From positions 1-41,525 of the IMG/VR virus record IMGVR_UViG_3300020187_000072: 41,525 nt of DNA; one strand, 5' to 3'. The notes below the pieces were generated by a model that ran no database searches, was not told where the DNA came from, and was given only the letters and a program-made list of their open reading frames with translations. Below, in pieces: positions 7,157 to 24,956 of this stretch; position 1 is the stretch's first letter; every line of letters begins with the position of its first letter. This stretch comes from a virus. Both the position numbers and the translations under genes were made by a program.

Positions 7157-10100
7157 TCTTTAGGCGTAGCTGCGTTTTTCCTTATATTCTCTACTACATC
7201 TAAAGCGTGTATTTTTGCAGAACGATCCATATCTTTCTGTTCTTCTTCCCACCATTCACCTATATTATTCATATCAACAGGTAGATTTTGTTCTTTTGTC
7301 CTGTAGTCTAAATAAGCTTTAAAGAAGGCGTTATTAACACCTTTTATTGAAGGCGAAGATCTTGTAAAATTCTCCTCTATTTGTCTTTCTAATTTATTAA
7401 GAAGGTTATTTATATCTCCTTTTGGTACAGGAAGAAGTAAGTTCGCAGTCCTCGCATATAAAAGGTAATCAACCATATTGTCTAATTTTTCTTGCATAGC
7501 AGGAGTATCTGCCGCAAGATATTCTATTATCCCTGTGCTTGAAACTCCACTACCTGGTTTTTTAAATACACGTTCTGTGTACAAAGTATAGGCTTTTGTG
7601 AATTTATCATACTGCTCAAAACCAACACTATACATACCTAAATTTTCCTTTAAAAGTAATGCTATTTCATCAGTACTTGTCCCCATTTTATCTAAATCTG
7701 TAGATATGTACTCTGGAATAACCTCTTCTCCTAATAACTCGTTCATTACAGAAAATCCTAAATCATACAATGGATCTGGAACAGCATAAGGTAAGGTTGT
7801 TTTAAACATATCTGTTGCCATTTGCAATAAAACACTATAGTTTGGAGATAATTTATATTTATTCTCATATTCCATAGTTGTTTTATACAACTCTAAAAGA
7901 GTGTAGTCTATACCAGTTGCTGTTTCATTAAAAGAAGCTTTAAAACCCTCTAAGGTTTCTCTTTGTCCTCTAGGCATTTTAGATAATTGCTCCTCGTAGT
8001 CACGATCTTCTATTGGCAATAAAGCGTCTCCAATAAGTTTTGTCATTCCACCATATCTATCTATATCATCTTCATCTGCTCCAAACTGCATCATTGCAGC
8101 TCCAACAAAACCTATAGTTGTAACCCTTCCTGTGGATAGTTTTATTCCGTTAAATACAGCAACTTCATTTAATATACCCCTCATTCTTTTGTTAGCTTCT
8201 TGTCTTTGCAACTCTGGTAGACTCTTGTCTTGAGATCTAGCGTATTGATTGGCAAAATTTGCTTTAGCATTTAACATAAATTTACCCCAAGGAAATACTG
8301 TTCTTTGAGCTATTTTAGTTCCTGTTTTAGCGTTTATGGCATAAAATTCAGCCTCAGAAGTTGGTTCTGTTTGCCTCATAGTTTCAGCTATTCTCCTATC
8401 TGCATATTCAATAGCTTCCGTATCTGGGTTTTCGTTTTCTTTCTTCCACCACGCTGATATGTCTTTAGGAATAATAGCGCCTTGATCTATTCTGTTTTGC
8501 AAATAATGAGATTCAAAAGCAGAATTTGCTGCAGCCCTATCCGCATTGGCTAAGAAAAACTCAAGAGAAAGCTCTGAGCTTTTAGTTATCGCATCTAAAA
8601 CACCGTCTACTGTATATTGAAGACCTCTCATTTCATCAGAAAAAAGGTCACTATCCATATTAAATTTACTAACATAATAATCAAGCGGAAGCTTTGTGTT
8701 TTCTCCTATAGCAAATTCAGCTTTTAAAGCATTACGCAATCCAGTTCTTGATTGACTGTAAATATTAGAAAGTTGACCTCCTTTTATAAGGTTGTTTGCC
8801 CATTGAGCATATTTAGCTGTTTTTTGGCCATTTCCAACACCTGCCATAGCAGACAAAAACCTTGCGTTAGCTAATTGTAAATGATTTCTAGCTCTTGCAT
8901 CATTTAACATAGGCATAGTACCAGTAGTTGCACTGTAAAACTGTGAAGCTGGTTGATTAAATCTTGAAAGACCTATTGCAGATAAAGTAGAATAAAAAGC
9001 TTGCCCTACTTTTCCTAAAGTGGCTGTAAAGTCTGGACTACCAAAATCCATTTGTACATTTTGACCTTGAGAAATCATGTAATTAAAAATCTCCATTCTA
9101 GATCCAAAATACTTTTGTACACTCTTATAATCTTTACCTTCCTTTGCAAATAAATCTTTAAAGCCATCAGAATTCACAATCATATCTATGGTCTCAAAAT
9201 CTTTTCTAGAATTCATGTCAATAAAAGAACCTTGCATTTGCTGATAAGCTCTTTCAAAATAATTACCAAAAGATAATCTAGAATTTTCTAGTGTATCATC
9301 TTCTGTAACATCTTGAAGAACCCCTGCAAAAGTTCCAAAATCACTTCCTTTTTTGTTTTTAATTCTATTAGCGTCACTTGACTCTTGACCGTTATCAGCT
9401 GTTCTAAAACTAGGCACATAAGTTCCGTCTACAAAAAAAGTATCTTTTCCTTCATAGTCTTTTTTTCTTTGTCTAGCTTCCTGGTGAGGAAATCTTTCTG
9501 AAAGTCTGTTAAGAGCATCCACTATAGGTTGTTTAGCGTTCCTAGACACATCTTCATAAGACAAAGCGCTATCCAAACCTAAACTTTCTAGTGTAGCTTT
9601 TAATTGCTTGTATTTTGCCTCAGTTATATTATCAGGGTCATCTTCGTATTCTTGTTTTCTAAGCTCTAACTCTTTAAACAAACTATTTTTTTGTCTTTGA
9701 AATTCTGTATCTAATCCTGTAGACTCATCTATTTCACCAGATTTTCTTCTTAAATGAGCTAAAACCTGCATCTCATAAGAAAGTTCTAAATTTCTTAAAT
9801 CAGTAGAAATTTTATTTTTAGGATTAGCTTTGTTATACGCTTTAATTTCGTTTTTAAATAGAGAAGCGTCTTGATTTACAAACTCTGCAGAAGTGTTCAT
9901 TGCGCTTGCTACATTTCTATTTGCAGCAGAGACTAAATCAATAAACGGCTTTCCTTTAGAAGTGTCTTTAAAAATAGCACCCAAAAATATATCTGAAGTC
10001 ATTAAGTTTTTAGGCATTACTTTCGTTCTACCCATCATCATTTTTCTTCCAAAATTGTTTACATAAGGAAATATGTCTTGAACAAGGCTAAAAGGATTTA

Positions 10101-13100
10101 TGTTTTTCTTACTAAGTAGCTTTGGGTTTTCAAGAATATCTATTTTTTCAGTATTAAGAACTTTTAAATCATTAATTGTTTCTTGAGCGTCTAAAAGAGT
10201 TTCCACTCTTGCAAACTTAGGCCTGAATCCGTTTTTAATGTCTGTAAAGAATTTTTGAATTATCTTTTTACCATTAGCATCTAACCCTTCGTAAAAGTTT
10301 TGAGATAGATTTAATTGTTTTATTCTATAAATAGACTCTTCTTGTCTTTTTGAGTCTTGTTTTTCTTGAAATATCTGTTCATCACTTTTCTTTTCTTGTT
10401 TTTCTGTCTCCTTTTTTGTTTCGTTTGCTACATCTTCGCCTAATAAAGTTTCTACAGCATCAGGTTTGTTTAATAAAATTATTTCTTGAGCTAAGTTAAA
10501 ATCAGTAGGATCATAATTTTCATCTACATCAATTTCTAAATCATCATAAGAAATATGATCGTTAAAGTAACCAACAACATCAATACGTTCAGATGAATCA
10601 CGCATGTTCTCCAAAACTTCTTTTTTGTATATCTCAGCTGCCCTTTGAGTCACTTCAGAATCTTCACTTGTAAGACTAAAGGTTTCACCTTCTTTTTCTT
10701 TTGATAATTGCTCAAGAGCTTTTTCAGTTAAAGCTGATTGTTGGTCTTTAGGTAAAAAATAGTAACTTAACTCACTAGGGTATGAAGCTAAAATTCTTCT
10801 CATTTTAAACTTCATGGTTTCTATTTGATCCTGAGCTGAATTAATAACTTCTGGTGTTGTTTCGGAGTCGTTTATTTGTCCTTGCAAAGCTTCTAAGTCA
10901 GCAATACCTTGTAAAAAAGTTGCTTTATGAGAGGGCGTCATTTGACCAACAAGCTCTTGTTTTCTTTTTTCAAACAACAAAATAGCGTCATCTGCTTGTC
11001 TTTGCATATCTAATGCAACTTTAAACTTAGGGCTGCTAGGAAGTTCCCCGCTGTCTTCAAGTTGGCTCACAATCATATCTGACTTAAGTTTATTTTGAAC
11101 AGCACTTATTTCTCCGTCAAGAGTTATTTTTCTGTTTATAACATCATCAGCTATATTGTTAACGTTTTTAGACATAGCTTTACTAGCCATACTCATACCA
11201 GAAGAACTAAACAAAGAGTTTAATCCAGCATCTGCAGCAAGTTTTTTTGCGGTTTCATTGCTATATTCTTTTAAACCAAAAGCAACGTCTGTAAGATATC
11301 CTGTGTAAGCAATAAATTGCTCTTCTGGAACTTCGTTTGCAATAACCTTAGGGCTTAACCCTGTGTATTTAGAAAAAGCTGCTATCAATCCCTTTCTGTT
11401 TTGTTCTGCAAATGCAGAAGCAAGTTGTTGAGCTGATTCCTGTGTCTTTGGAACGTTTCTCATTCCGTTTGCAAGTTTCAACTGTTTAAAATACTTAGCA
11501 GTAAATGCCGCAGTTATAAGAGTCTCTCCACCTGCTTTAAGAAGAGCATATCCTCTTGCTTTAGCACTAGACATCTCTAATAAATCTTTTTGTTTTTCAG
11601 TTAAAACAATTCCAGCTGACTCAGCTTCTCTTGCAGATTTTCTAGCTTCTCTTACCTCTTCTATACTTCCTCCATAAGTGCTACCAAAAGTAACACCTAA
11701 GCCAACTCCAGGATTAGCCATAAATGCAGCTATATAAGGAACAGAAGATGTAAAACCTTGCATACCGTATGATAAAAACTCTCCAACACCTCTTGAATCG
11801 GATATAGATCCGTTGTATTCAGGAAGTAATTTCATTGCCTCTTCAACCTCTTTTTTTGTAGGCATTGAAGCACGAGGAATGCTCATTCCTGGAGATCCTT
11901 TTGCTCCAGGTAAATAAACACCCGTTTGATTAAAAATAACATGTTCAGCAACTTCTGGAGGAACTCCAAACATTTCAAGTGAATCTTGTAATGCTACACC
12001 AAAGTTATTTAATATATCTAATGTATTGGCGTAAATGCCTTGTGGAACATCAGCTACACCTCTAAAAAATGAATTTAACCTAGGGTTTCCTTCATCTAAA
12101 AAAGCAATATTTCTTTCTTGAGTTACTTTAAGTTTTTTTACTAAATCATTAAACACACCAACGTCTACGCTGTCATCAATAGAAACTCTTATTTCACCTC
12201 TTTGTATATAACCAAGCTCTTTTGGTCTTGATATTAAATCATATACGTCTTGAAAAGAAGCTTGTTTATCGTTTATTAATAATGATGGTAAAGGCATATC
12301 AAGCATATCTAATCCACTAGATATTAAGCCAGCTATTTGTTTTTCGTTACTAAGATCTATCTGAGCCAACTTATCACTTCTTTTTAAAGATTTACCTAAT
12401 ATCTTAGATGTGTTTCTTTTGCTTTGCTCATATTTTTTTAAGATATCATCTATTCTGCCTAGAGTTGACTTTATCTTTATATTGCTTTCAAGTTCTTCTT
12501 CTGTTAAAGAATCGTTTGGATTCTCTGGTAACCTAAGATTATCTGTTTTAGTAGAGGCTAAAGTAGAGGATATAACAGAATCCTTATAATCTTTTTCTTT
12601 CTTTATAATATCATTATAAGCTGGAGTTAAATTACGTTTTAACTGCTTAATTGAATTTATAAATATGTCAGAATTAAAACCTCTAGAAGTTTTAAATATG
12701 TTGGAGTTTTCTTGACCAGTTAGAGCTTTTGATAAAAAACGCAAATCCTCTTCTTCTGGTTGATTCATTTGAAAAGAATAACGCTCCATAGCATCGTTAA
12801 CGCCAAAACGATTTTCATCTATGTAATCAGATATAACTCCAACTAGGTTTGATTTACCTAGAGATAAATCCATTACAAATTTATTGTGCTTTGTATTAAC
12901 TCTTTGGTTAGTTTTCTCCTCTCCTTTAAAAAACTCTCCTATCATATTTCCAACTCCAGACATTAGTTCTATTTCAAACTGAGTTCCGTCTGGTCTTGTT
13001 ATATTAAGAGCGTTGGAGCCTATATTACTTTCTGATGCAGAATACCCGAAATCTCCTAAAATCTCATTAAACTTAACCTCAGCATCTGCTTCTCCCATTT

Positions 13101-13674
13101 TTAAGAAATCTCTAGGGAGCTGCTTTAGAATCGGAAGTATACTAGTTCTTTCGTCTAATTTTTCAGTATAATATTCGTCTACCTTTGGTTGAGGTACTTG
13201 AGTTATGTTATTTGGATCTTGAGGCACCAATGTGGTAGGTGAACTTTCCAATATGGATGGAGAACCCGTACCTGTAGGTGTTATCGCAACTACATTTTGT
13301 GGAATTGATTGCTGTAAAGTGTGGTTTTGATTTTTTTTTTCAACCTCTTTGACATCAGTCCATGATAAACTTAGTTTTTTATAACCATTGTCATCTAGTT
13401 TTTTTTGCCCAGTTTTCTTGTGTGCGAAATCAATCCAATATCTTAGATTTGAAGAAGAAGATATGTTTTTTAATTTGTTTTTATTATATCTCTTACCAGC
13501 ATTGTCGTATAAAGAAACTAAATATGAATAAACTTTTTCCTTATTTACAGGAGGTTTTGGATCCTTTGGATCCTGTGGGTCTTTAACCTGAACATTGTTT
13601 TCTGAAACCATAGCATTATCTTCAATAGTTTGCTTTGGGTCTTCTAATACTGGTGTATCTTTTTTCACAATCAT
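7153..13674 (-). CDS. Giant internal virion/ejection (cargo) protein, 2173 aa
   Basis: The largest gene of the window. The product is mostly alpha-helical, very rich in Lys, Glu, Gln, Asn and Ala, with a disordered Pro/Asp N-terminus (QDPKDPKPP) and a charged Glu/Lys/Gln middle stretch. A glycine-rich, moderately hydrophobic segment (SSVPYIAAFMANPGVGLGVTF) could insert in membrane after ejection. The C-terminal third has features common in very large phage-ejected proteins: NQPASQFYSATTG, LANADRAAANSAFE, FPWGKFMLNAKANFANQYAR. No transglycosylase, RNA-polymerase (DxDGD) or protease motif could be found. Its place at the end of the late operon, after two smaller internal proteins and the muzzle, is that of T7 gp16-like or crAss-like cargo proteins. 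Assigned as ejection protein by size, composition and position. Confidence 0.65.
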   Translation of the reverse strand: MIVKKDTPVLEDPKQTIEDNAMVSENNVQVKDPQDPKDPKPPVNKEKVYSYLVSLYDNAGKRYNKNKLKNISSSSNLRYWIDFAHKKTGQKKLDDNGYKKLSLSWTDVKEVEKKNQNHTLQQSIPQNVVAITPTGTGSPSILESSPTTLVPQDPNNITQVPQPKVDEYYTEKLDERTSILPILKQLPRDFLKMGEADAEVKFNEILGDFGYSASESNIGSNALNITRPDGTQFEIELMSGVGNMIGEFFKGEEKTNQRVNTKHNKFVMDLSLGKSNLVGVISDYIDENRFGVNDAMERYSFQMNQPEEEDLRFLSKALTGQENSNIFKTSRGFNSDIFINSIKQLKRNLTPAYNDIIKKEKDYKDSVISSTLASTKTDNLRLPENPNDSLTEEELESNIKIKSTLGRIDDILKKYEQSKRNTSKILGKSLKRSDKLAQIDLSNEKQIAGLISSGLDMLDMPLPSLLINDKQASFQDVYDLISRPKELGYIQRGEIRVSIDDSVDVGVFNDLVKKLKVTQERNIAFLDEGNPRLNSFFRGVADVPQGIYANTLDILNNFGVALQDSLEMFGVPPEVAEHVIFNQTGVYLPGAKGSPGMSIPRASMPTKKEVEEAMKLLPEYNGSISDSRGVGEFLSYGMQGFTSSVPYIAAFMANPGVGLGVTFGSTYGGSIEEVREARKSAREAESAGIVLTEKQKDLLEMSSAKARGYALLKAGGETLITAAFTAKYFKQLKLANGMRNVPKTQESAQQLASAFAEQNRKGLIAAFSKYTGLSPKVIANEVPEEQFIAYTGYLTDVAFGLKEYSNETAKKLAADAGLNSLFSSSGMSMASKAMSKNVNNIADDVINRKITLDGEISAVQNKLKSDMIVSQLEDSGELPSSPKFKVALDMQRQADDAILLFEKRKQELVGQMTPSHKATFLQGIADLEALQGQINDSETTPEVINSAQDQIETMKFKMRRILASYPSELSYYFLPKDQQSALTEKALEQLSKEKEGETFSLTSEDSEVTQRAAEIYKKEVLENMRDSSERIDVVGYFNDHISYDDLEIDVDENYDPTDFNLAQEIILLNKPDAVETLLGEDVANETKKETEKQEKKSDEQIFQEKQDSKRQEESIYRIKQLNLSQNFYEGLDANGKKIIQKFFTDIKNGFRPKFARVETLLDAQETINDLKVLNTEKIDILENPKLLSKKNINPFSLVQDIFPYVNNFGRKMMMGRTKVMPKNLMTSDIFLGAIFKDTSKGKPFIDLVSAANRNVASAMNTSAEFVNQDASLFKNEIKAYNKANPKNKISTDLRNLELSYEMQVLAHLRRKSGEIDESTGLDTEFQRQKNSLFKELELRKQEYEDDPDNITEAKYKQLKATLESLGLDSALSYEDVSRNAKQPIVDALNRLSERFPHQEARQRKKDYEGKDTFFVDGTYVPSFRTADNGQESSDANRIKNKKGSDFGTFAGVLQDVTEDDTLENSRLSFGNYFERAYQQMQGSFIDMNSRKDFETIDMIVNSDGFKDLFAKEGKDYKSVQKYFGSRMEIFNYMISQGQNVQMDFGSPDFTATLGKVGQAFYSTLSAIGLSRFNQPASQFYSATTGTMPMLNDARARNHLQLANARFLSAMAGVGNGQKTAKYAQWANNLIKGGQLSNIYSQSRTGLRNALKAEFAIGENTKLPLDYYVSKFNMDSDLFSDEMRGLQYTVDGVLDAITKSSELSLEFFLANADRAAANSAFESHYLQNRIDQGAIIPKDISAWWKKENENPDTEAIEYADRRIAETMRQTEPTSEAEFYAINAKTGTKIAQRTVFPWGKFMLNAKANFANQYARSQDKSLPELQRQEANKRMRGILNEVAVFNGIKLSTGRVTTIGFVGAAMMQFGADEDDIDRYGGMTKLIGDALLPIEDRDYEEQLSKMPRGQRETLEGFKASFNETATGIDYTLLELYKTTMEYENKYKLSPNYSVLLQMATDMFKTTLPYAVPDPLYDLGFSVMNELLGEEVIPEYISTDLDKMGTSTDEIALLLKENLGMYSVGFEQYDKFTKAYTLYTERVFKKPGSGVSSTGIIEYLAADTPAMQEKLDNMVDYLLYARTANLLLPVPKGDINNLLNKLERQIEENFTRSSPSIKGVNNAFFKAYLDYRTKEQNLPVDMNNIGEWWEEEQKDMDRSAKIHALDVVENIRKNAATPKD

Positions 13675-15743
13675 TAGTTATTTATTATGTCTGTGTATGC
13701 TTCAAACGCTCCTAAAAAGTCGCTTTTATTACCGCCTTTCATTATACCTTTTATATTATATCCTTTGTCTGACAAAACTTTTTGGAAAGAACCTTCTTCA
13801 TTTCCTTGTTCCCAAAGCTTTGTATATAAACTACGAATCTCTCCTGAATCAACAAGATAAAAGTCATCTACGGCTATTGATTGTTTTGTAGACATAGCGG
13901 TTGAACCACCTTGGGTTGATAGTAATGAATCACTTAATGTTGTTGAAGCTAAGTCTATTTTTCCTTGTATAACAAGCATTGGAGCAAGTGGCTCTCTTGT
14001 GTTTTCATCCACGCCTTCATCAAAGTAAATAATATTACTAACTGATGTTAATTTTCCTCCACTAACAGTAGTCCCTTTTAAATCTTGAGTTATTTTACTT
14101 ATAATATCTCCACCTGGTTTCTTGTTTTTTCCTTGCGTTACAACACTAAAACCTCCTAACACGTCTTGAGATCTATCATTCAAAACCTTCATTGAACCAG
14201 CTAATCCTTCTGTTGCTGGTGTTAATGAAATACCTTGATTAAACCTTCCTATAGCCTCTCTTGTTTTGTTTGCACTTGTATTGGTTCCAGTAGAAAACTC
14301 TTCTCTACCTGTTGCTAAAATTTTTATTTTGCTCTGTATAAAAGATTGATCAATCGGAGTATTGTTGTTTATTGAGAGTATTTTCCCTGTTGGTTTTTCA
14401 TCAATAATTTCTTGAACCTGACTAGGATAAGTTGCAGGTGCAAAAGAAATACCAACAGGAGGTGTTTTAGAGCTAGAAGCTGTGTTAATATGATCCTTGT
14501 AATCCTTATAAGTAACATTAAAAGACTTCAACATTTTGTCGCGCTTAAAAGCTTTTGCTAAAGCTCTTTGCTCATCTGTTACTTGTATCTTACCTCTTGA
14601 ATCTGTTTGTAAGTCTAATGGATCAGATGTAAATTTCAAAACATTACCATTCATATCATAATACCTTGGTAGCGTAGTTGTTTCTCCACCCACAACAACA
14701 TCCATCATCATGCTTTCATTAGTTTCTTTTGCGTTTCTTGGCGGCTCATAATCAGGTTGAAAATCTGCTTTTCCTCCCATAAAAGAATGTATTATGGAAA
14801 TAGCATCATCATCTGATGTCTTCCCTATATACTCTTCCACACTTCTAATCATATCTGGAAAATTCTCTGGAGCTATTTGGTATGCTAAAAGCTGAGATCC
14901 AGAAGGAAATGTTCCTGTGTTTAAATAAGGGTTATCAAGACTATTTCCGTTTTTATCTACAAAATTAACCCTAGTTCCAGTAATAGACTGAAAGTCTTTA
15001 ACGTCTTTTGTTAAGTCGTATTTTTTTACATATTTTTTACTTGGATCTAAAGCCTCTGTTAAAGGTTGATAAAAAGTTTTGTTTGTTGTTTGTACAATGT
15101 TATTTATTCTTACAACATCCCCATTTTCATCTCTTTTAGGAACTTCTTTTATTTTAACAACATTTAAAACTCCATTAATATCTTGAACTTGTAAACCTTC
15201 AATAGAAGGTCTTCGAACGTACTGTTGTACTCCACCTACAATCTTAGGAGTTCCATCTGCGTTAACAGCTGGAGATAAATAGACGTCTTTCTTGTCGCCT
15301 GGATTGTTATACCAAAGAAGATTTGCTTGGTCTCCTGAAATACTGTCAAATTTACCATCTTCAACACCTTTATAAACGTTTTTTAAATTTTCGTCTTGTA
15401 GTTTAGACATGTTAGCTAATATAGCTATTTCTGATTCATATTGACCTTTTGCAGCAGAAACTTGACTTAAAGTCATGTCCCCTCTTCTGTTAGCTTGATG
15501 AGAAGCAGCTAGTCTATTTACCCTATCCCTAGCTCCTTGTTGTATAAGTTTGTCGTGCTGAGTAATACCTGTAGATGTAATCTTACTGATTTGCTCAGTT
15601 AGATCTGACATTTGCTTGTCTCTTTTTTCGCTTATCTTTAAGTTTATTTGTGCAATCTCTGAGCTACCTTGAAGTAGCATTTTAGTTAAGTCATCAAACC
15701 CACCTAATATTGGTTGTGTTACAGTTCCTCCTCCGTATGACAT
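13674..15743 (-). CDS. Internal virion (cargo) protein, 689 aa
   Basis: A 689-residue protein with a Gly-rich start, a long Gln/Lys helical region (about 15-135, including LIQQGARDRVNRLAASHQANRR), then a mixed alpha/beta body with many Asp, Thr and Ser residues. No enzymatic motif is recognised. It lies between the 195-residue Ala-rich gene and the 2173-residue giant and overlaps the giant's start by one base (TAATG). This trio matches the small-medium-large set of internal core proteins in podoviruses (T7 gp14-15-16 arrangement) and the cargo proteins of crAss-like phages, so it probably leaves the capsid with the DNA. Homology to either set is not demonstrable here. Confidence 0.55.
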   Translation of the reverse strand: MSYGGGTVTQPILGGFDDLTKMLLQGSSEIAQINLKISEKRDKQMSDLTEQISKITSTGITQHDKLIQQGARDRVNRLAASHQANRRGDMTLSQVSAAKGQYESEIAILANMSKLQDENLKNVYKGVEDGKFDSISGDQANLLWYNNPGDKKDVYLSPAVNADGTPKIVGGVQQYVRRPSIEGLQVQDINGVLNVVKIKEVPKRDENGDVVRINNIVQTTNKTFYQPLTEALDPSKKYVKKYDLTKDVKDFQSITGTRVNFVDKNGNSLDNPYLNTGTFPSGSQLLAYQIAPENFPDMIRSVEEYIGKTSDDDAISIIHSFMGGKADFQPDYEPPRNAKETNESMMMDVVVGGETTTLPRYYDMNGNVLKFTSDPLDLQTDSRGKIQVTDEQRALAKAFKRDKMLKSFNVTYKDYKDHINTASSSKTPPVGISFAPATYPSQVQEIIDEKPTGKILSINNNTPIDQSFIQSKIKILATGREEFSTGTNTSANKTREAIGRFNQGISLTPATEGLAGSMKVLNDRSQDVLGGFSVVTQGKNKKPGGDIISKITQDLKGTTVSGGKLTSVSNIIYFDEGVDENTREPLAPMLVIQGKIDLASTTLSDSLLSTQGGSTAMSTKQSIAVDDFYLVDSGEIRSLYTKLWEQGNEEGSFQKVLSDKGYNIKGIMKGGNKSDFLGAFEAYTDIINN

Positions 15744-15762
15744 ATTTTGTTATTTAATATTT

Positions 15763-16350
15763 TTAATAGTCCTTAGGTATGGGAGCTGAACCTACTTCTC
15801 CTGCTTTTCCAAACAAACTTGTAGCTTTACCTTGAGAGGCAGCAAGTTTATCTGAAGCCAGACCAGCTCCAAGTGCCATTCCTCCTAAGTCTTTTATTGC
15901 ACTAGATTGCATCTGCATACCAGCCATTTTTTGAGCCTTCAAAGAAGATAGTTCTTCCATTTTTCTTTTCTCAACCATACCCCTCATAGTTTGTTCTTCT
16001 TGAACACGAACTACATCGGCTTGGTATTCTTTGTCTAACTGACTAGAAAAAGCTTTCATTTCTAAGTCACCTGTAGCCCCTAGACCTGCAGAAGCCATAG
16101 CCATAGCCTGTGCAGCATCCATTCCTCCAGCTACATCTACAACAGCAGCCCTTTGCTTTGAAGCAGCGGCTTGCATTTGTCGTTCAGCCTCAAGAGATGG
16201 TTTTAAGTTCTCTGCTAAATTAGTTAACTCTTGATGTCTAAACTTAGCCAAACCATGTTCAGCTTGGCTTTTCAATTTACTACCTTGCATAAACTGCAAT
16301 CCATCACCAATTAAACCTACACCCATTCCAATTGCACTAAGTATTGCCAT
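15763..16350 (-). CDS. Small Ala-rich internal virion protein
   Basis: The 195-residue product is rich in Ala, Met, Gln and Gly. It starts with a hydrophobic glycine-rich segment (LSAIGMGVGLIGDGLQFMQG) that could be membrane-active, continues as a long amphipathic helix (about 25-145) with repeated AAASKQRAA and AQAMAMASAGLGA patterns, and ends in a flexible GKAGEVGSAP tail. This composition is typical of podovirus internal core proteins such as T7 gp14, which insert into the host envelope during DNA ejection. It heads the three-gene ejection set and is preceded by a 30-base gap with a TATATTTG box, so it may begin a separate transcription unit. Confidence 0.6.
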   Translation of the reverse strand: MAILSAIGMGVGLIGDGLQFMQGSKLKSQAEHGLAKFRHQELTNLAENLKPSLEAERQMQAAASKQRAAVVDVAGGMDAAQAMAMASAGLGATGDLEMKAFSSQLDKEYQADVVRVQEEQTMRGMVEKRKMEELSSLKAQKMAGMQMQSSAIKDLGGMALGAGLASDKLAASQGKATSLFGKAGEVGSAPIPKDY

Positions 16351-16365
16351 ATTACTTTAATTTTT

Positions 16366-16378
16366 ACAAATATACAAA
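16366..16378 (-). promoter_or_regulatory. Candidate Bacteroidota-type promoter box before the ejection genes
   Basis: On the - strand the gap reads TTTGTATATTTGT, containing TATATTTG (16374-16367), a full match to the Bacteroidota -7 consensus TAnnTTTG, 16 bases before the start at 16350. No good -33 TTG is seen at the usual distance. The identical 13-mer is found at 33585-33597 and a near copy at 24116-24128, which argues for a shared function. Confidence 0.4.
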
Positions 16379-16380
16379 AT

Positions 16381-17154
16381 TTACATATAGCTCTTGAAGA
16401 CCTCTGTGTTCGCAGCAAACAATTCTACAAATGAAGTAGAGTCATTTGTTAATTTTATAGTGCTACTATACCCTCTTACGCCAAAAGATTCAGATTCTGC
16501 ATTTTTAACAACAAAACAAAAATCATCTGCTTGTGGTAAATTTACAGTAGAGACTGTGGTTATAATATTATTTTGAAACGTATTAATAACCCCAATGATC
16601 TTAGTTGTTCCGTCATTAAAAAATAATTCATCTCCACCAACTCCATCAGTACCATTAAAAGAAATTTGATTAGGTATATTTTTTGTGAATTGATATTGAT
16701 TAGTTCCTGGTACGGATTGTAAGTTTCCAATACCAACTATAGATAACTTATTAAAGTCTAATTTATTAGTAACATATCTTCTAATGTATCCGTATTTGAA
16801 CCCTTCTTTATCTATAAATTTAAGATTAGAAGAAGTCCCTATGTTTCCAGACTCAAGATCTGAGTTTACTACAGCATACCAATTACTTGAGTTTGACTCT
16901 AAAGAAATAGATTTAAATCCTTTTACGTCAGAAGGGTTTTTATTTGATGAGTAAGTAACGCTACAACCATTAGAACCCCCGTAAAAGTTCGTTCTAGTTT
17001 CGTTTTCATCATGAATATAAAGCTCACCGTTTTTAAAGGTGTAAAAATTAGTACCTAGTCTTTCCATCCACTCAGGTTCGTATGAGTGAAAAGAAGTCCA
17101 TGCATTATAAACCTCATCAAATGTTATTGTTCTTTGTCCTGATTGTAATCCCAT
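16381..17154 (-). CDS. Neck/muzzle-associated protein, detached muzzle C-terminal module
   Basis: A 257-residue all-beta protein. Its N-terminal half has the pattern FDEVYNAWTSFHSYEPEWM, then FYTFKNGELYIHDEN, NFYGG, CSVTYSSNKNP and KGFKSISLE. In crAss-like and related podovirus stabilisation/muzzle proteins, blocks of this type (WTSF-SYxPE, TFKxGxLxxH, FYG, N-P-K-F) normally follow the propeller strand GYDPxYxxYVL within one polypeptide. Here the propeller is in the gene immediately upstream, one base away, and this module is a separate product. It therefore probably assembles with the 1773-residue protein in the tail muzzle. The C-terminal half is beta-rich and unassigned. Conclusion rests on motif memory and adjacency. 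Confidence 0.6.
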   Translation of the reverse strand: MGLQSGQRTITFDEVYNAWTSFHSYEPEWMERLGTNFYTFKNGELYIHDENETRTNFYGGSNGCSVTYSSNKNPSDVKGFKSISLESNSSNWYAVVNSDLESGNIGTSSNLKFIDKEGFKYGYIRRYVTNKLDFNKLSIVGIGNLQSVPGTNQYQFTKNIPNQISFNGTDGVGGDELFFNDGTTKIIGVINTFQNNIITTVSTVNLPQADDFCFVVKNAESESFGVRGYSSTIKLTNDSTSFVELFAANTEVFKSYM

Positions 17155-17155
17155 A

Positions 17156-20100
17156 TTAATCGTCTATTACTACAGGCCATGCTCCTGGCGATGGAGAAAA
17201 GCCTAGTGTGTTAAGTGCATCGGTTACTAAATACAGGTAATAGTATTGCCATTGATCAAAATTACCTGTGTATGGTACTGGTTTAAGAGGAGCATTTGCG
17301 TCATTATTGTCGCTTTCCTCTACGTTTTGAACGAAATTAAATGTAGGTGATGAACCAGAAACTAAGTCTGATAATCCATTTGTGCCAGAATAAGTTCCTG
17401 TACCTCCAATTACCGCATCAATAAACGCATTAAACTGCGCATAACCCTGTACTTCCATTAATATACCTCTATAAAACCCACTGTTAGATGAATTTAAAGA
17501 AGTAACTCTTGATCTCAAGTCAGCTATATCTGTGTCGTACGTTGCTGTTCTTGCTGGGGCTGTGCTTCCAGTTCCACCTGCATTGTAAGGAGTTGACTCG
17601 TCTTGAAAAACAATCACAATCACATTACTAGCGTCGGATGGAAAATTGTTATGCGTTGATGTAGATATAAAATCATTTACATCATTATCTCCTAAGGCAG
17701 CAAAAGTTCTTTCATTTTGCCAGCTAGTTGAAGAACCTGCTCCGTAAACAATAGTTACTTTACTATCATATTCATCACTACCGTTTGTTGCGTTATTTGT
17801 ATTTCCACTAGACTCCGTTCCTCCAGTTGCATAAAGATCCTGTAAAGTTCCTTTTAAAGAACCAGTCCTAAGTGTTTGAAGCTCGGTTTCAGTTGTTGCC
17901 ATAGATCCCGAATTATCAAAGTATATGTATATGTAGGTATCTACAGATATTGCTAATGCTTGAGTTGTAACCGTTGCAGTTGCTTGACACGCTCCACCTC
18001 TACTAACAACATAAGTAAAGCTATCATTTAGATTATTTCCCGATGTATGATTATAAGTTATAGTGTTGTCTGAATTAACTACAGCAGTACCGTATGATGG
18101 AGCTGTACCTATTGTAAGGGTATATGGAGAAGGTATAGAGTCGTTTGCAACAACATTTATAATACTACTACCTCCATTTGTAATTCCAGTAACACTATCG
18201 TTTGTTAATACAGGTAAAGAATCTATATAGTTCCAAACTAAATATAATTTTTGACTTGTATTTGTTCTATTAAATTGAAAATTAACTGTGTTTTCTTCAA
18301 TACCAGAAGTAGTTGAAGTAGTCACAGTTGGATATGTTGCCTGGTCTATAATATTTTGAACACTAAGTCCAGAAGCTGCAGAAACTAAATAACCTAAACT
18401 ATTACAAACGTTAAAATGTCCTGAGTGTGTGCCTATTTGTTTTAATGAAGATATTGTTACGGTGTCACCATTATCTGGTATTATATCCGTACCTTCATAT
18501 CCTGTTATAACCTCATATCTAGTAAGTTCATCTGCCTCAAAAATATCTAAATTTGAATTATAAATATCTCCTTGAGCTCCATTATGCTTATATCTGTTTA
18601 TAATTGTTTCTGATGCCTCTGTTGAGTCATTTACAACAACTAAAACAACTTCTAAAGTGTCTGGAACAGGACAAGTATGTGTAATACTAACAGTAGCATC
18701 AGAAGTAGAGTTAGAGCTTATAGTAACTGAAGCGATATTTGTTACATCTAAGTCATTAGAAGTTACATTAAAAGTAACTTGACCGCTTCCTGTCAGGTTG
18801 TTGTTTGTGTATGTTACACCATTATAAACAATTACAATATTTATACTAGATGATGTTGTGTATCCTATTGTTGTAACTCCTGAAAAAGAACCCACGTTCA
18901 AGTTATATGAAAAAGCACTTCCTGTTATTAATCTTGTAAAAGAAGAAGCACAGTCAAGTTCTAATGAGTCTTGCGGAACTTGATTGTTGCCCATAGATAA
19001 AACATATTGATGATACTTTGGGTCGTACCCTCCTATATTGTAATAAGATTTATTATTATAAAGCTTATCTTTGAAAAAAGCCTTCATTCCTAAATAAGAT
19101 ATAGGTGTAACTCCATCGTTTCCTAATCTCAAAACAGCTCCTCTGTTTGGATCAGCAAAATACAGCCTACCTTCGTAGTTTGAAAAAGACTCTGGATTCA
19201 GTGATATTCCATATTCTCCCGTGAAAGGAACGTCTTGACCCAATACTTTTTCTATTTGCGATAAACTTCCGCTTCCGTCAGGACTAGATAATATATTTTT
19301 CCCATACAAAACCTTAGAAACCCTATCTTCTTGAAATACTACAAGATCAGATTCTCTAGCAAATATTTTCTGTATAGACCCGTATTTTGAATCCATATAC
19401 TTAGTAATACCTCTACTAGAATTAAACTCATTTAAAGTGTTGTATCCTGTATTCTCGTTAAATGAACCACTATAAATTAATTTTGTTTTGTCTTCCTTTC
19501 TTTCATATCCTTCTATAATAGCAATATTTGGTCTCGACTTTACATCTATTTTAGCTTTAAATCTATCATCTAAAACCCTCATTGATTCAACGCCGTTACC
19601 AAAACTAAAACAATTACCAAAACCTAAGTTACTTATAGCGGGTAGTGTTGAGGTTTGATCTTGATGATTACCTTTATGTAAGCCGTTAGATATTTCAAAA
19701 ACCTCCTCTGTTTCATAATAAATATCAGCATCTAAATCTACAGGCTCTGTTTCAAAAATAGCTAAAGTTGTTACTAGAACTATATCTATATTAGCCTCTA
19801 ATGTTGAATTTTCAAAAGTTGCAGTACCTTCACTAGGCTGAACTCTAATCATCCATCTGCCAGTAGCTCCATACCCTTGACTTGTTTTATATATATCTAA
19901 TTTAAAATTTTCATCTTGATCGTTAAGAGAAGGGATTGTAAACCTTGTTCCATTAACAGCGTCACTAATACTTACGTTTTCGTAAGTGAAATTTGTTTCG
20001 TTTTTCAAAAACAACCCAAACGCATTATCTGTTGCTGTTGTAACATAATCTCCATTTGAAGTCCATTCTTTAAAATAATTAAAATTAGGACTTCCGTCAC

Positions 20101-22477
20101 TTTCACTATAAACCAGCTCTAGTTTTATTGAACTACCTGTTGTTAAATCTTGATTTACCCATGTATTATTAGTTTCATTTAGTCTTTGTAATATTCCTTC
20201 ATTAAGAAGCCCGTTTGAAAGCAAAATTAGTCCACTAAGTCCTGTATGAGGCCCTTTTGGCAAATAAACGGTATTTGTTCCAGCCCAGGTATTTAAAAAA
20301 CCTCCTCCAGCTCTTTTTTTAGTTCTGTACTCTATAAAATTATTTGGATTAAAATCCATTTGAAAACCATTCGGTCTTATTTTCATATATGTACCAGCTC
20401 TTTCTACAAGCGGATCTCCAGCACCGTTTTGATTTGCTGGTATCCAACCTTCTCCATCTATCTCTTCATCTGCACCATTTTTTGTTGTTACATCTAATAC
20501 TTTACACTTAATTTCTTTGTTTAAAGGTCCCGTATCATCAGCTTTAACTATAAGTGTTTGTCCAGCCTCAACTTTTCCTAGATTATTTCCTTGTAATAAA
20601 ACCCATCGATATAATCCGTCTTCATAAAAAATAGTTGCATATATATTGTAATGAGAGTCTTTATTTACTTTAACAAAATATTTATATCTGTCAGCCCAAT
20701 AAGGAGGGTTGTTTGATATAGATAATCTCAATTTATTTAAATTAACACTTTCACTTATAGGCACAAAAACCTCATTTGAAGTGGTTCCAACTGACTCTTT
20801 AGGAAGTAAAATACTTGAATATCTACCATACTTATCTAAATAAACCAACCCAACTTCATAACTCCTTAGTGATTTTAAAGAAATGTTACTAACTGATTGT
20901 CTTATTTTTATATGAGATCCATCCTCAAACTTAAAGTTTTCTAATTCATTTGTAAAAACATTATCCGTAGTGTCTAGTGGAGTTGTATCTACTTGATGAG
21001 TTATTGATGGAGCTAAAATAGTAAAAGATGTAGAAGAAGATGTGTCTAAAGAAAAACTTCCATAAGTTACTAAAGTAGTATTTAAGGGGCTTGTAGTATT
21101 TACTACACTTGCAAACACAGATGAAAGAGACCCTAAAAAACTAACAAACTCTGCTGATTGCACCATGTCTGAAACAGTTGCATAATCCTGAGCTAACACA
21201 AAAGCAGATTGACAAACAGCTCTTCCATTAAAATAAATATTAGGGGAAGTACCTGCTGCATCTGATTTAACAGAGAAGTTTGCTGTAATAGTATATCCTT
21301 GTAATAAATTTTCTCCAGTTAAATCAAAAACTATTTTTGTATCACCTGTTGACAATGCTCCATCTTTCTTGTCGCCTTCTTGATCTTTAGAAACTAAATC
21401 TACAGTATAATCTATTTTAATTTTATCGTTAGATCCTTCTTCTTCTACAACGTCATATTGAGAAGTAGTATTTCCAAAAACAATTCTATCGTTTATAAAA
21501 TCTTGTGATTTTGCAGTTAAAGGCACATCATCAAATACTCTAAAAACTTCATCTTGAGGTAAAGTCTTGTATATTTTTTTATTTACAAACTCATAAGCTT
21601 GAGAGCTGTTATCAAGTATGCTACTTTCTTTTTTATTAATATTATCAATAACATAAATAGTTGGCTCTGTTGGATATTTAAAAAGTAGCTGTACATCTGT
21701 AACCCTATGGTCTCCACTTTCGTAATTTATTCTATATCCATTAAAAATATTTAACATTCCTTTATTCTCCATAGATGCAAAGTCTAAAGAGAAGTCTTCT
21801 GGAGTGAATTGAAAGTAACTAAAAGATGAAGGCGCAGAATATCCGCCGTCTAGATACCTATATCTATATCCGAAAGCAAAAAAGTTTTCTCTTACTGCGT
21901 TCTCAGATGTTACTAAACTATTAAAAGGAGTTACAGTAGGAGCTTTTTTTGGAGGTTTTTTATATAAAGAAATATCATCTTCATAAAAATTATTTAACCC
22001 ATAAGACTTTGCTCTCTTGATATCAATCATTCTTGGCTGATTCAATCCATCTGTCCAAAGTATTAGATTACTTTTCTTTGAGTTATTGAATATAACATTG
22101 ACACCTGTAATTTTATAGTCTTTATTAAAGTTTAAAACTTGTTGATCACCAGATCTTTCGTCTGTAAGAATATTAGAAGTTATATTATTTTTTCTGTCAT
22201 ACTCATATATATACGAATACCCTAATTCATTAACAACAAACCAATATATTTTTTCTTTAGATTCATTTGCTACAGACCCAATACATTCAGGTGAGTTGCT
22301 AAGATTTACATTAGTGAGCTTAACATTACCTTTTTCATTTTCTATTGCTCCACTATCACCACCCGCAGTGTTTAAAACACGAACGTTTAAGGCGTCTACA
22401 TACTCTCCGTTTTGAATAAGACGTTCATCTACATCTTTATTCATTTTTCCTGTAGAAAATAAATTTTGTATCTTCAT
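17156..22477 (-). CDS. Muzzle/tail stabilisation protein with appended Ig-like and VWA (MIDAS) domains
   Basis: A 1773-residue structural protein. Residues 1 to about 1165 follow the crAss-like muzzle / P22 gp10-like stabilisation family: start MKIQNLFSTGKMNKDVDERL, then GEYVDALNVRV, GAIENEKGN, FAFGYRYRYLDGGYSAPS, FINDRIVFGN and, near 1149, GGYDPKYHQYVLS, as in beta-propeller tail proteins that close the portal channel. About 1170-1773 appear added: beta-rich Ser/Thr/Asn-rich stretches, an Ig/cadherin-like domain at about 1420-1510 (VVANDSIP, APSYGTAVV, ITYNHTSG, DSFTYVVS), and a von Willebrand A-like domain from about 1511 with MIDAS DNSGSM at 1521-1526 after the strand YIYIYF and a later NVIVIVFQDES strand. 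These are adhesion folds, so the protein may also touch the host surface. No signal peptide or transmembrane segment is seen. It overlaps neither neighbour (1-base gaps), fitting a neck operon. Confidence 0.75.
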   Translation of the reverse strand: MKIQNLFSTGKMNKDVDERLIQNGEYVDALNVRVLNTAGGDSGAIENEKGNVKLTNVNLSNSPECIGSVANESKEKIYWFVVNELGYSYIYEYDRKNNITSNILTDERSGDQQVLNFNKDYKITGVNVIFNNSKKSNLILWTDGLNQPRMIDIKRAKSYGLNNFYEDDISLYKKPPKKAPTVTPFNSLVTSENAVRENFFAFGYRYRYLDGGYSAPSSFSYFQFTPEDFSLDFASMENKGMLNIFNGYRINYESGDHRVTDVQLLFKYPTEPTIYVIDNINKKESSILDNSSQAYEFVNKKIYKTLPQDEVFRVFDDVPLTAKSQDFINDRIVFGNTTSQYDVVEEEGSNDKIKIDYTVDLVSKDQEGDKKDGALSTGDTKIVFDLTGENLLQGYTITANFSVKSDAAGTSPNIYFNGRAVCQSAFVLAQDYATVSDMVQSAEFVSFLGSLSSVFASVVNTTSPLNTTLVTYGSFSLDTSSSTSFTILAPSITHQVDTTPLDTTDNVFTNELENFKFEDGSHIKIRQSVSNISLKSLRSYEVGLVYLDKYGRYSSILLPKESVGTTSNEVFVPISESVNLNKLRLSISNNPPYWADRYKYFVKVNKDSHYNIYATIFYEDGLYRWVLLQGNNLGKVEAGQTLIVKADDTGPLNKEIKCKVLDVTTKNGADEEIDGEGWIPANQNGAGDPLVERAGTYMKIRPNGFQMDFNPNNFIEYRTKKRAGGGFLNTWAGTNTVYLPKGPHTGLSGLILLSNGLLNEGILQRLNETNNTWVNQDLTTGSSIKLELVYSESDGSPNFNYFKEWTSNGDYVTTATDNAFGLFLKNETNFTYENVSISDAVNGTRFTIPSLNDQDENFKLDIYKTSQGYGATGRWMIRVQPSEGTATFENSTLEANIDIVLVTTLAIFETEPVDLDADIYYETEEVFEISNGLHKGNHQDQTSTLPAISNLGFGNCFSFGNGVESMRVLDDRFKAKIDVKSRPNIAIIEGYERKEDKTKLIYSGSFNENTGYNTLNEFNSSRGITKYMDSKYGSIQKIFARESDLVVFQEDRVSKVLYGKNILSSPDGSGSLSQIEKVLGQDVPFTGEYGISLNPESFSNYEGRLYFADPNRGAVLRLGNDGVTPISYLGMKAFFKDKLYNNKSYYNIGGYDPKYHQYVLSMGNNQVPQDSLELDCASSFTRLITGSAFSYNLNVGSFSGVTTIGYTTSSSINIVIVYNGVTYTNNNLTGSGQVTFNVTSNDLDVTNIASVTISSNSTSDATVSITHTCPVPDTLEVVLVVVNDSTEASETIINRYKHNGAQGDIYNSNLDIFEADELTRYEVITGYEGTDIIPDNGDTVTISSLKQIGTHSGHFNVCNSLGYLVSAASGLSVQNIIDQATYPTVTTSTTSGIEENTVNFQFNRTNTSQKLYLVWNYIDSLPVLTNDSVTGITNGGSSIINVVANDSIPSPYTLTIGTAPSYGTAVVNSDNTITYNHTSGNNLNDSFTYVVSRGGACQATATVTTQALAISVDTYIYIYFDNSGSMATTETELQTLRTGSLKGTLQDLYATGGTESSGNTNNATNGSDEYDSKVTIVYGAGSSTSWQNERTFAALGDNDVNDFISTSTHNNFPSDASNVIVIVFQDESTPYNAGGTGSTAPARTATYDTDIADLRSRVTSLNSSNSGFYRGILMEVQGYAQFNAFIDAVIGGTGTYSGTNGLSDLVSGSSPTFNFVQNVEESDNNDANAPLKPVPYTGNFDQWQYYYLYLVTDALNTLGFSPSPGAWPVVIDD
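17900..17917 (-). other. MIDAS metal-binding motif codons of the VWA domain
   Basis: These codons specify DNSGSM (residues 1521-1526), the DxSxS core that binds Mg2+ or Mn2+ in von Willebrand A/integrin I domains. It follows a hydrophobic strand (YIYIYF) as expected. The second and third metal-contacting loops cannot be fixed with certainty, though FQDEST near residue 1625 sits at the end of a hydrophobic strand where the third is expected. Confidence 0.7.
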
Positions 22478-22478
22478 A

Positions 22479-23366
22479 TTACTTTATCCACTTATCTCTC
22501 CCTCTTAATGTTTGAGTTAGTTCATTTAATTTAATAGAATTTAACCTTATTTTTGCATTTCTTAATGAAGCTGAAGATTGTTTTGTTGCTCTTCTAACAA
22601 TAAACTCTTGTATTCCAAATTTTTGCTTACATACATTTGAAAAAATGTAATCATACATAAATGTTTCTGCTAATTTATGAACTTTTATCTCATTATCTGC
22701 AGAAGAGTATAATCCATCTGAAACATATTCTATAACAACATTCTGTCCATGTAAGTCTGTACTAAACATTATAGTTCCAGAGTTTTTATCAATAAGATAG
22801 CTACCGTTCCCGTTTGTTGTAGAAGTGTCTAAACCGTATCTTTGTCCCTTAGAACCCCTGTGTGCGCCTCTTAAGCCTTGTTTGGGTTGGTTTTTCCAGT
22901 TAGTTTCTATTACTGGAGTACCTGTTAAAGCGTTTCCATTAGAATCAGTCAATATATTTCTTTGAGCAGAATTATCTTGTAGATATGACTTTGTTATCTT
23001 TGAGTTGAAATTTTGGTTTATAGGATGAGTTAGTCCATCACTACCTACATAAGATATTTTAACCAGGCTAACGAAATCATGAGGTAAATGCATTTTTAAA
23101 GTATCTGGAATTTGTGCTTCAAAACCAACTACTTCTCTAAGTACATCATAATGTAATTCTTGTAACCCTCTTTTTGCGTGAAATATTATTTCATTTCTAT
23201 CAATCTTATTTATTACCTTATCGTCTCCAACATAAGTAATCAAAAAGTTATTTATAATATCCGACAATAAAAGATATTGATAAGTACCCCAGTTTTCATT
23301 AGTGGGAATATTACTATCATTTTGATAATATTTCTGTTGTGTTATGTTTGTTCCTATAATTGGCAT
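22479..23366 (-). CDS. Head-tail connector / ring protein (295 aa)
   Basis: A 295-residue protein whose N-terminal half matches tail-adaptor proteins of podoviruses: INNFLITYVGDDKVINKIDRNEI, AKRGLQELHYDVLREVV, then PDTLKMHLPHDFVSLVKISYV, a beta element that often packs against the portal in gp4/gp11-like adaptors. The middle is Gly/Asn-rich and probably loop; the C-terminal part (EIKVHKLAETFMYDYIF, then IVRRATKQSSASLRNAKIRLNS) is helical and basic, as needed for insertion between portal and tail. It lies between the other ring protein (3-base gap) and the muzzle protein. Likely one of the stacked neck rings; exact equivalence to named crAss-like ring proteins is inferred. Confidence 0.65.
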   Translation of the reverse strand: MPIIGTNITQQKYYQNDSNIPTNENWGTYQYLLLSDIINNFLITYVGDDKVINKIDRNEIIFHAKRGLQELHYDVLREVVGFEAQIPDTLKMHLPHDFVSLVKISYVGSDGLTHPINQNFNSKITKSYLQDNSAQRNILTDSNGNALTGTPVIETNWKNQPKQGLRGAHRGSKGQRYGLDTSTTNGNGSYLIDKNSGTIMFSTDLHGQNVVIEYVSDGLYSSADNEIKVHKLAETFMYDYIFSNVCKQKFGIQEFIVRRATKQSSASLRNAKIRLNSIKLNELTQTLRGRDKWIK

Positions 23367-23369
23367 ATG

Positions 23370-24101
23370 CTATGAATTTTGTTTTTGATATTCTAACTGC
23401 TCTTGTTGGCTAGTTACTTGTACAACATCGGCCTCTCTTATACTTAATCCAGAATACTTACATATTTTTATAACTAAATCAGTTTCATCTTCTTCGGATA
23501 TTTCAAAATCCACAGAACTGTCTGAATTATATACAGGGTCGGAGTTTATCGTATTATATCCCCAATGAGGATCTAAAGGTTTTCTAATGTAGTTAGCAAT
23601 AACATTTACTGAATTGTACCCTGTTATATGTATACTTACAGGTCTTACTATCATCTTATCTCCCTCTCTTTTAAATATGGGATAAGTTACACTAGGTGCA
23701 GATAGATTGCTATTCACAATCATATCAAATCTATGCGACGGAACCTGTTGAATAACCTTTCCCGCATAAGTTAAGTTTATTAATTTATATAAATCTGTAG
23801 GTGCAACAAAATAATCTTCTTCTCCACCAGGTGAAGTTGGGATTGCATCAAAATAAGTTAATGCTTGGTTTTTTGAAAATATGTCAATCTTGTTTTGTAT
23901 ATGAGCAACAGAGTCTCCATAATTCAATCCTCTTTTTCTAGAGTTTTGAGCTAATAGAGCTTTAGAATATTCAGAAAAATAAGACTCAAATATTTCTAAT
24001 TGAGCTTGTTTAGCGAAATAATCAAACTCTGAAGGAGACACATATCCTCTGTTATCTTTATTCAACAAAAACATAACAGTATTTCTTACGCTATTTATCA
24101 T
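23370..24101 (-). CDS. Neck ring protein (243 aa)
   Basis: The 243-residue product begins with a helical region (INSVRNTVMFLLNKDNRGYVSPSEF, then YFAKQAQLEIFESYFSEY) typical of the first ring or adaptor below the portal in Bacteroidota podoviruses, followed by a beta body: DYFVAPTDLYKLINLTYAG, YPIFKREGDKMIVRP, VNVIANYIRKPLDPHWGY, DFEISEEDETDLVIKICKY. The KREG...I.V.P and YIRKPxDPxWG patterns recur in crAss-like neck proteins as I remember them. It is the first gene after an intrinsic terminator that overlaps a TAnnTTTG box, so it may start the neck transcription unit with the 295-residue ring, the muzzle and its detached module. Confidence 0.6.
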   Translation of the reverse strand: MINSVRNTVMFLLNKDNRGYVSPSEFDYFAKQAQLEIFESYFSEYSKALLAQNSRKRGLNYGDSVAHIQNKIDIFSKNQALTYFDAIPTSPGGEEDYFVAPTDLYKLINLTYAGKVIQQVPSHRFDMIVNSNLSAPSVTYPIFKREGDKMIVRPVSIHITGYNSVNVIANYIRKPLDPHWGYNTINSDPVYNSDSSVDFEISEEDETDLVIKICKYSGLSIREADVVQVTSQQEQLEYQKQNS

Positions 24102-24115
24102 AGGATATATTTTTT

Positions 24116-24128
24116 ACAAAAATACAAA
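24116..24128 (-). promoter_or_regulatory. Candidate promoter of the neck operon
   Basis: The - strand reads TTTGTATTTTTGT. Its TATTTTTG (24124-24117) fits the Bacteroidota -7 element TAnnTTTG, and a TTG at 24144-24142 lies 17 bases upstream as a possible -33 element, located in the loop of the terminator hairpin. The start codon at 24101 is 15 bases away. The T tract of the terminator runs into this box, so termination and re-initiation share DNA. Confidence 0.45.
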
Positions 24129-24157
24129 AAAAAAGAGGTCACAATTTGCGACCTCTT
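24126..24157 (-). terminator. Rho-independent terminator after the 258-aa gene
   Basis: Read leftward, an 8-bp stem (AAGAGGTC, with GACCTCTT at 24150-24157 on the + strand) closes a 9-base loop and is followed by a run of T residues (+ strand A run at 24126-24134). It lies 22 bases after the stop of the 258-residue gene and would end the capsid transcript. Confidence 0.85.
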
Positions 24158-24179
24158 CTGTTATTAAGTGATAAAGTAA

Positions 24180-24956
24180 TTATAATTTGTTTGTAATGTT
24201 TTGTAAAACATCAAGACCTTCGTCTGTTTTAAAGAATAAACCAAGAGAACTATAAACGTTTTCTCCAAAAGGAGCGACCATTATTTTCTCTTTTTTCTTG
24301 TCTTTCCATACGACAGTCCTGTTATCACTATTAATGTGTAATATACCTTGTTCTACTGCTCTTACAGCTATATTTCTTAATTTAAGGTTTTCATCATTTA
24401 ATAAAGACATAAATTCAGATGGGTTTTTCTTTGCCCATATAATCATATCTCTTCTTAATTCTGAAGAAGTCATTAAAGATATACTTCCTTTCATACATAC
24501 TCTAGCTATAGCCTCTAAATCATCAATGTTAAGATTCTTAGCTTCTATTTGAGCATCTAATTCTGAGTATATACTTTCAACTTCTTTACTTGCGTTTGCT
24601 TCTTTGTCTAATTCAAAAAAAGTTTTGTTAAACTGAGGGTGAATTAATAAAAACTTCTGCAAGTTTACATTCCAAGCAGGAACAATTAAAGTACCATTAT
24701 CAAAAACGATAGGCTCCATAGTAACAACACCATCTTGCTCATCCATAAAAGGAGTAAGTTGATTAGTTGCATACCTAAGTGCCCTGTTTAATTTTCCGTC
24801 GAAAAAAGTTAAAGGTTTTCTTGATGTGTGTTTTACCGCTATCATTAAACGGATAGGAGATTTATTCTCCTTTATTACAAAAACTCTTTGTTTTTGCTCT
24901 AGGTTTGGAAAAACTGAGTTGTATCCAAACGCTTTTGTTGCATTTCTTGTTGCCAT
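24180..24956 (-). CDS. Capsid-adjacent structural or auxiliary protein (258 aa)
   Basis: A 258-residue protein found directly after the major capsid gene in many marine phages of this type, by my recollection of the pattern KAFGYNSVFPNLEQKQRVF, FFDGKLNRALRYA, then PFMDEQDGVVTMEPIVF and LQKFLLIHPQFN. The first half looks beta-rich, the rest helical (residues about 125-205), ending with a short strand-helix unit. No enzymatic motif is seen. Because it lies between two intrinsic terminators, it is probably transcribed only by read-through of the strong hairpin behind the capsid gene and so made in lower amounts. A head auxiliary or neck-assembly role is possible; function unknown. Confidence 0.55.
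   Translation of the reverse strand: MATRNATKAFGYNSVFPNLEQKQRVFVIKENKSPIRLMIAVKHTSRKPLTFFDGKLNRALRYATNQLTPFMDEQDGVVTMEPIVFDNGTLIVPAWNVNLQKFLLIHPQFNKTFFELDKEANASKEVESIYSELDAQIEAKNLNIDDLEAIARVCMKGSISLMTSSELRRDMIIWAKKNPSEFMSLLNDENLKLRNIAVRAVEQGILHINSDNRTVVWKDKKKEKIMVAPFGENVYSSLGLFFKTDEGLDVLQNITNKL

Follow-up and report, generated by a model that had tools for sequence, protein, structure and literature searches.

The muzzle protein of a marine Bacteroidota phage carries at the end of its first chain a domain that is probably VWA-like with a MIDAS-type site, judging from alignments and a predicted structure, although no family model matched it significantly. Computational comparison of related muzzle genes showed that this domain is exchanged between phages with otherwise almost identical muzzles.

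Genome context and muzzle identity

The window analyzed was a whole virus record of 41,525 bases. Its minus strand carries terminase, portal, capsid-type structural protein and tail genes, and the gene order matches that of Cellulophaga phage phi18:3 (Pachyviridae) and Flavobacterium phage elemoA. The ORF of interest lies at 17156-22477 on the minus strand, and all residue numbers refer to its 1773-aa product. L-numbers denote sequence records of relatives (MW202828 is L002, elemoA is L003). The features of the locus are:

17156-22477, minus strand: muzzle chain 1 (body and adhesin block), 1773 aa; PHROG 14478, E 4.9e-280
18983-22477, minus strand: muzzle body, residues 1-1165; 79 relatives in IMG/VR and 91 phage records, tied to crAss_MUZ via L058
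18233-18982, minus strand: beta-rich linker region ("mid"), residues 1166-1415; AlphaFold2 strands, pLDDT mostly 80-95
17969-18220, minus strand: Ig-like domain Big_9, residues 1420-1503; Pfam PF17963, E 3.7e-10
17159-17965, minus strand: predicted VWA-like domain, residues 1505-1773, end of chain 1; AlphaFold2 (pLDDT 91.8, pTM 0.91) and alignments
17903-17917, minus strand: DxSxS of the presumed MIDAS, residues 1521-1525; all 31 sequences keep D and the final S, and all 31 have S or T in the middle
17705-17707, minus strand: presumed MIDAS Thr, residue 1591; T or S in 31/31
17597-17608, minus strand: FQDE, residues 1624-1627, after presumed strand beta-4, with D1626 as presumed MIDAS Asp; invariant in 31 phage sequences and 3 bacterial lipoproteins
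17228-17827, minus strand: segment differing between the near-identical muzzles of relatives, about residues 1551-1750; position in the window by homology
16381-17154, minus strand: muzzle chain 2 (C-terminal muzzle domain as its own gene), 257 aa; match to the ends of one-chain muzzles, and crAss_MUZ_C

PHROG 14478, a virion structural family, covered residues 2-1514. A Pfam search with the 1773-aa protein itself gave no direct muzzle match, and the crassvirus-type muzzle identity that had been proposed for the ORF is supported by sequence links through relatives. Relative L058, whose body is 36-46% identical to that of the window, matched both crAss_MUZ (PF25731, E 8.9e-20) and crAss_MUZ_C (E 2.5e-10), each beyond its curated cut-off. 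In addition, the chain 1 homologue of phi18:3 (gp114) is annotated as a virion protein by MS/MS. Sequence searches of the PDB, profiles included, returned nothing useful for the whole protein, the VWA-like domain, the muzzle body, the one-chain muzzles or the C-terminal domain.

Crassvirus-type muzzles are hexameric, with a gated propeller, and sit where the tail ends. In phiCrAss001 (Crassvirales) the tail-end muzzle keeps the channel closed and probably opens by a rearrangement upon cell contact; contact through the crass fold is a proposal of that study (PMC10172136). The body and C-terminal domain of the phiCrAss001 muzzle, gp44, are homologous to those of the window via intermediates, and a tail-end place would be expected here too. 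Muzzle length is described there as varying by insertions into the crass fold and IG2 (PMC10172136). Unlike gp44, the muzzle in the window has an extra block between body and C-terminal domain, a gene split at that place and a VWA-like domain.

A split muzzle

The original prediction placed the boundary between conserved core and block near residue 1165, which is right, since relatives with or without the block align over residues 1-1162. The same prediction described the block as appended. It does follow the body after about residue 1165, but the muzzle continues beyond it, with its C-terminal domain encoded by the adjoining gene at 16381-17154. The 257-aa product of this gene matched end to end the last ~250 residues of L058 (30%, 4e-31) and of elemoA (30%, 9e-30); in these two and in the L067 group, body and C-terminal domain form one chain. 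The crAss_MUZ_C model matched the 257-aa protein at E 8.4e-5, which is below the Pfam cut-off; it scored above the cut-off in six related records (phi18:3, elemoA, MW202828, L058, L067 and L063) and was significant in none of 14 control genomes. The junction of the two chains reads TAA-T-ATG, i.e. stop codon, one base and start codon. Because the gene following 17156-22477 supplies the muzzle's own C-terminal domain, these matches indicate that the block terminates chain 1 of a split muzzle, in the position from which one-chain muzzles continue into that domain.

The split was also found in relatives lacking the VWA-like domain (L032, L033, L036, L043 and phi18:3, those for which the next gene could be read), and this domain is therefore not the cause of the split. 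In phi18:3 (Baltivirus) the muzzle is divided into gp114 and gp115 as in the window, with MS/MS of virions given in the annotation of each chain. Like chain 1 of the window, gp114 has a beta region and a Big_9 Ig domain; unlike it, gp114 has another module at its end in place of the VWA-like domain.

Other arrangements were seen among relatives. The C-terminal muzzle domain is separated from the body gene by one gene in MW202828 and by ~11 kb in L063. Five distant one-chain muzzles of 2500-2900 aa (L067, L071, L075, L082 and L089) carry other modules after the C-terminal domain, namely Cys/Asp-rich repeats (GCTDPxAxNYxPxAxxDDGSC), fn3 or Lcl_C. Compared with L058 and L060, which are near-identical to it, L061 has its muzzle reading frame (8982-13076, plus strand) in two pieces, probably owing to a frameshift in the assembly or sequence.

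Conservation of the MIDAS-type site

The ORF and the DNSGSM motif at residues 1521-1526, from which a VWA domain had been proposed, were confirmed, and the Ig-like span described at ~1420-1510 corresponds to the Pfam Big_9 match. Conservation of D1521, S1523 and S1525 among close relatives had been named as a check of the VWA reading; all three MIDAS residues were kept in 31/31, position 1523 as S or T. The full set of five MIDAS-type positions (D1521, S/T1523, S1525, T/S1591 and D1626) was retained in each of 31 distinct full-length phage homologues, always with the side chains in the order DxSxS, T, D. Moreover, D1521, G1524, S1525 and M1526, together with F, Q, D and E at 1624-1627, were invariant across this set, and the motif is therefore no chance match. 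Alignments of 17, 29 and 18 sequences showed conservation clustered at D1521-x-S/T-G-S-M, E-x-T/S1591 and F-Q-D1626-E, and the five positions were kept even between alleles with 27-50% identity around them.

Fold and family assignment

AlphaFold2 modeled the block with a pLDDT of 86 and the domain alone with the higher scores listed above, as alternating strands and helices. The model did not speak against the structural part of the original prediction, showing an alpha/beta fold with a VWA-like order of elements, but it is no clean confirmation, as the Foldseek matches were weak (best E 0.12) and no Pfam VWA match was significant. Against the PDB (350,542 chains) Foldseek found nothing for the domain at E 0.001; the top three matches were the VWA domains of ANTXR1, Rpn10 and CMG2 (E 0.12-0.37, TM about 0.33). 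A Foldseek search with the whole block was discarded, being swamped by Ig-type beta modules (TM about 0.1). In a viral structure library one distant match was named "VWFA domain-containing protein" (Virus NIOZ-UU157, E 1.5e-6).

Pfam searches with 17 domain members gave no VWA match, the best value being E 0.1, reached by two members against the VWA model of CobT (CobT_C), and no NCBIfam VWA model matched the domain. When the profile of the domain was aligned locally with that of 56 bacterial VWA domains, only the DxSxS strand aligned, and 2 of 150 column shuffles did as well; global alignment of the profiles gave nothing. The domain is best assigned to the VWA family, but the assignment is remote because of the missing Pfam match and the lack of a significant structural match.

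The domain could instead have another alpha/beta fold, for example that of a degenerate SGNH-like hydrolase acting on surface glycans, with DxSxS acquired by convergence. PatB, of the SGNH family, came next in the Foldseek results and ranked above the VWA domains by TM-score (0.38-0.43), though not by E-value, and the missing Pfam VWA match would fit such a fold as well. An SGNH profile, however, aligned to the domain at chance level (47 of 100 and 77 of 150 shuffles were as good), whereas VWA aligns at the DxSxS strand, and the invariant positions follow the MIDAS order, so that a fold other than VWA appears unlikely.

Compared with VWA domains bearing a MIDAS (integrin I domain, ANTXR1/CMG2 and bacterial VWA proteins), the proposed VWA-like domain is alike in the order DxSxS, T, D and in the predicted alpha/beta fold, and ANTXR1 and CMG2 are among its best, albeit weak, fold matches; sequence and fold matches were never significant. 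It differs in that, among the predicted elements, the second strand is followed by the T residue without an antiparallel edge strand in between, and in having FQDE where TDG is usual.

Distribution among phages

Among the relatives from the body scan whose 3' end is complete and whose body identity is 49% or more, the VWA-like domain was present in most and missing in five (L032, L033, L036, L039 and L043). The Cellulophaga phages also lack it, and a search with the domain alone gave no match in isolated phages and plasmids. Absence falls at clean domain borders: L032, L033 and L036 stop after residue 1418, directly after the "mid" region, and in L043 and phi18:3 the border comes after the Ig domain. 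In L102 the body is just 32-34% identical to all others, and the VWA-like domain is 60% identical to that of the window and 75% to that of L027.

Two contigs of this phage group (L127 and L128) are listed under bacterial MAGs, one of Epsilonproteobacteria and one of Maricaulis. Their domain copies were rejected as bacterial host genes, as both contigs show the phage's own gene order, and they are likely mis-binned phage contigs.

Exchange of the domain between muzzle bodies

Two pairs of phages have nearly the same body and divergent VWA-like domains (L026/L057, body 97% and domain 56% identical; L027/L028, 95% and 51%), and two others show the reverse (L042/L052, 60% and 90%; L027/L102, 33% and 75%). 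Along the L026/L057 proteins identity is 89-100% up to residue 1500 and drops to 41-53% over residues 1551-1750, where L027/L028 likewise fall to 27-50%. In the reversed pair L042/L052, identity is 21-68% over residues 151-1000, 94-100% over 1101-1550 and 67-96% beyond. At the DNA level, over 17.5 kb of L026/L057 just two 300-base windows fell below 75%, both inside the VWA-like domain; over 21.4 kb of L027/L028 there were three within the domain and one at the locus end. The blastn alignments of the swap pairs break at the domain as well.

On the VWA tree the two allele types, FDxSGSM and FDSTGSM, are explained by a single change; the body tree requires four, each of them forced by starred branches. 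In AU tests the VWA data rejected the body pairings L026+L057 (p 1e-45) and L027+L028 (p 4e-5). The swap pairs were picked after their identities had been seen, and the assemblies are metagenomic, in which chimeric assembly could mimic a swap; this is unlikely because two pairs from four different datasets break at the same place with matching DNA on both sides. A diversity-generating retroelement was dropped as the source of the variation, as 7153-24956 holds no template-like repeat and the alleles differ by indels.

Other tailed phages have swappable tail-fibre tips, in which a near-constant body carries an exchanged distal binding domain. The muzzles studied here share this arrangement, but their exchanged domain has a MIDAS-type site and is part of the protein that closes the channel. 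Exchange is the pattern expected of an interchangeable host-binding tip, and on sequence grounds the receptor-binding reading is strongly, if indirectly, supported.

The exchange also bears on a structural or assembly role, in which the metal site would hold the second muzzle chain or neighbouring subunits without host contact. Such a role would suit the position of the domain at the very end of chain 1, adjoining the gene for the C-terminal muzzle domain, and VWA proteins are known as assembly cochaperones in some viruses (PMC7824862). However, five relatives and the Cellulophaga phages do without the domain and keep the split muzzle wherever the next gene was read, and a domain bound to a conserved partner should not swap while that partner stays near-identical. 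An assembly role is accordingly considered rather unlikely.

Related domains in bacterial proteins

The same domain was found in 3 of 92 genomes of one bacterial family (E about 1e-35), where it ends proteins of 445-524 aa. The records are L129/L134, L135 and L136, one of them titled Chitinophagaceae bacterium:

L135, 787-2124, plus strand: bacterial protein ending in the VWA-like domain; domain match
L136, 1438-3012, minus strand: bacterial protein ending in the VWA-like domain; domain match
L129, 3-1199, plus strand: bacterial protein ending in the VWA-like domain; domain match, Big_2 domain

The two full-length proteins show an N-terminal signal peptide and a lipobox (LYLTAC and FMTSC), read by eye. 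These predicted lipoproteins share the domain family with the phages, keeping DxSGSM and FQDE at 39-44% identity in the alignment; they have no muzzle, and L129 has a Big_2 domain, unlike the phage chain 1. By analogy, they are the best hint that the phage domain may work on cell surfaces. In L135 the gene lies beside one reading as truA. The N-terminal region of the three proteins (WCLEW...REIQxVIW) recalls by eye a thioester domain, and Pfam gave no thioester-domain match for these N-termini.

Another explanation of the exchange is escape from decoys or from an inhibitor, whether bacterial or environmental, the domain being exposed and its own ligand of little weight. Exchange alone does not separate receptor choice from escape, and the related domains on predicted bacterial lipoproteins would suit escape. 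The retention of the metal-site positions throughout points instead to a retained binding chemistry, which makes escape improbable as the main explanation.

Proposed function of the block

Taken as a host-binding device, the block is probably a modular tip in which the beta modules and the one Ig-like domain would hold the VWA-like domain out from the muzzle at the tail end. The exposed domain would bind a bacterial surface ligand through its MIDAS-type metal site, while the muzzle body would keep the channel closed and the next gene would supply the C-terminal domain. Recombination would change the tip, and hence the ligand, with either just the VWA-like domain or the entire block plus downstream genes passing from one body to another. 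Ligand binding may be coupled to the opening of the muzzle.

More tentatively, crassvirus-like phages might here have a new way of choosing hosts: the channel plug would carry an integrin-like adhesin, metal-dependent and exchangeable, whose VWA family also occurs in bacterial surface lipoproteins, and ligand binding would pull the gate directly, the muzzle gene being split at that place so that the adhesin ends the first chain. The finding bears on host recognition by such phages and on the trigger of muzzle opening. Natural pairs differing almost solely in the VWA-like domain are ready test material, with the prediction that a plug domain of ~200-270 residues sets binding. If true, a MIDAS-type adhesin would join the known kinds of phage binding domains, among which no report of one was found in the open literature searched.

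Other genes in the window

A point against the host-binding reading of the block is that the phage has other candidate receptor-binding proteins too. An ORF of at least 1964 aa at 35631-41525 (minus strand), which runs off the window, matched Peptidase_S74 (chaperone of endosialidase) near its end and is by this match a second candidate host-binding protein. A 2173-aa ORF at 7153-13674 (minus strand), which gave no Pfam or PHROG match, occupies the slot of the giant virion protein of relatives. Close to the terminase lies a gene for a GroES-like co-chaperonin (32527-33087, minus strand), as is also the case in the phi18:3 and elemoA phages.
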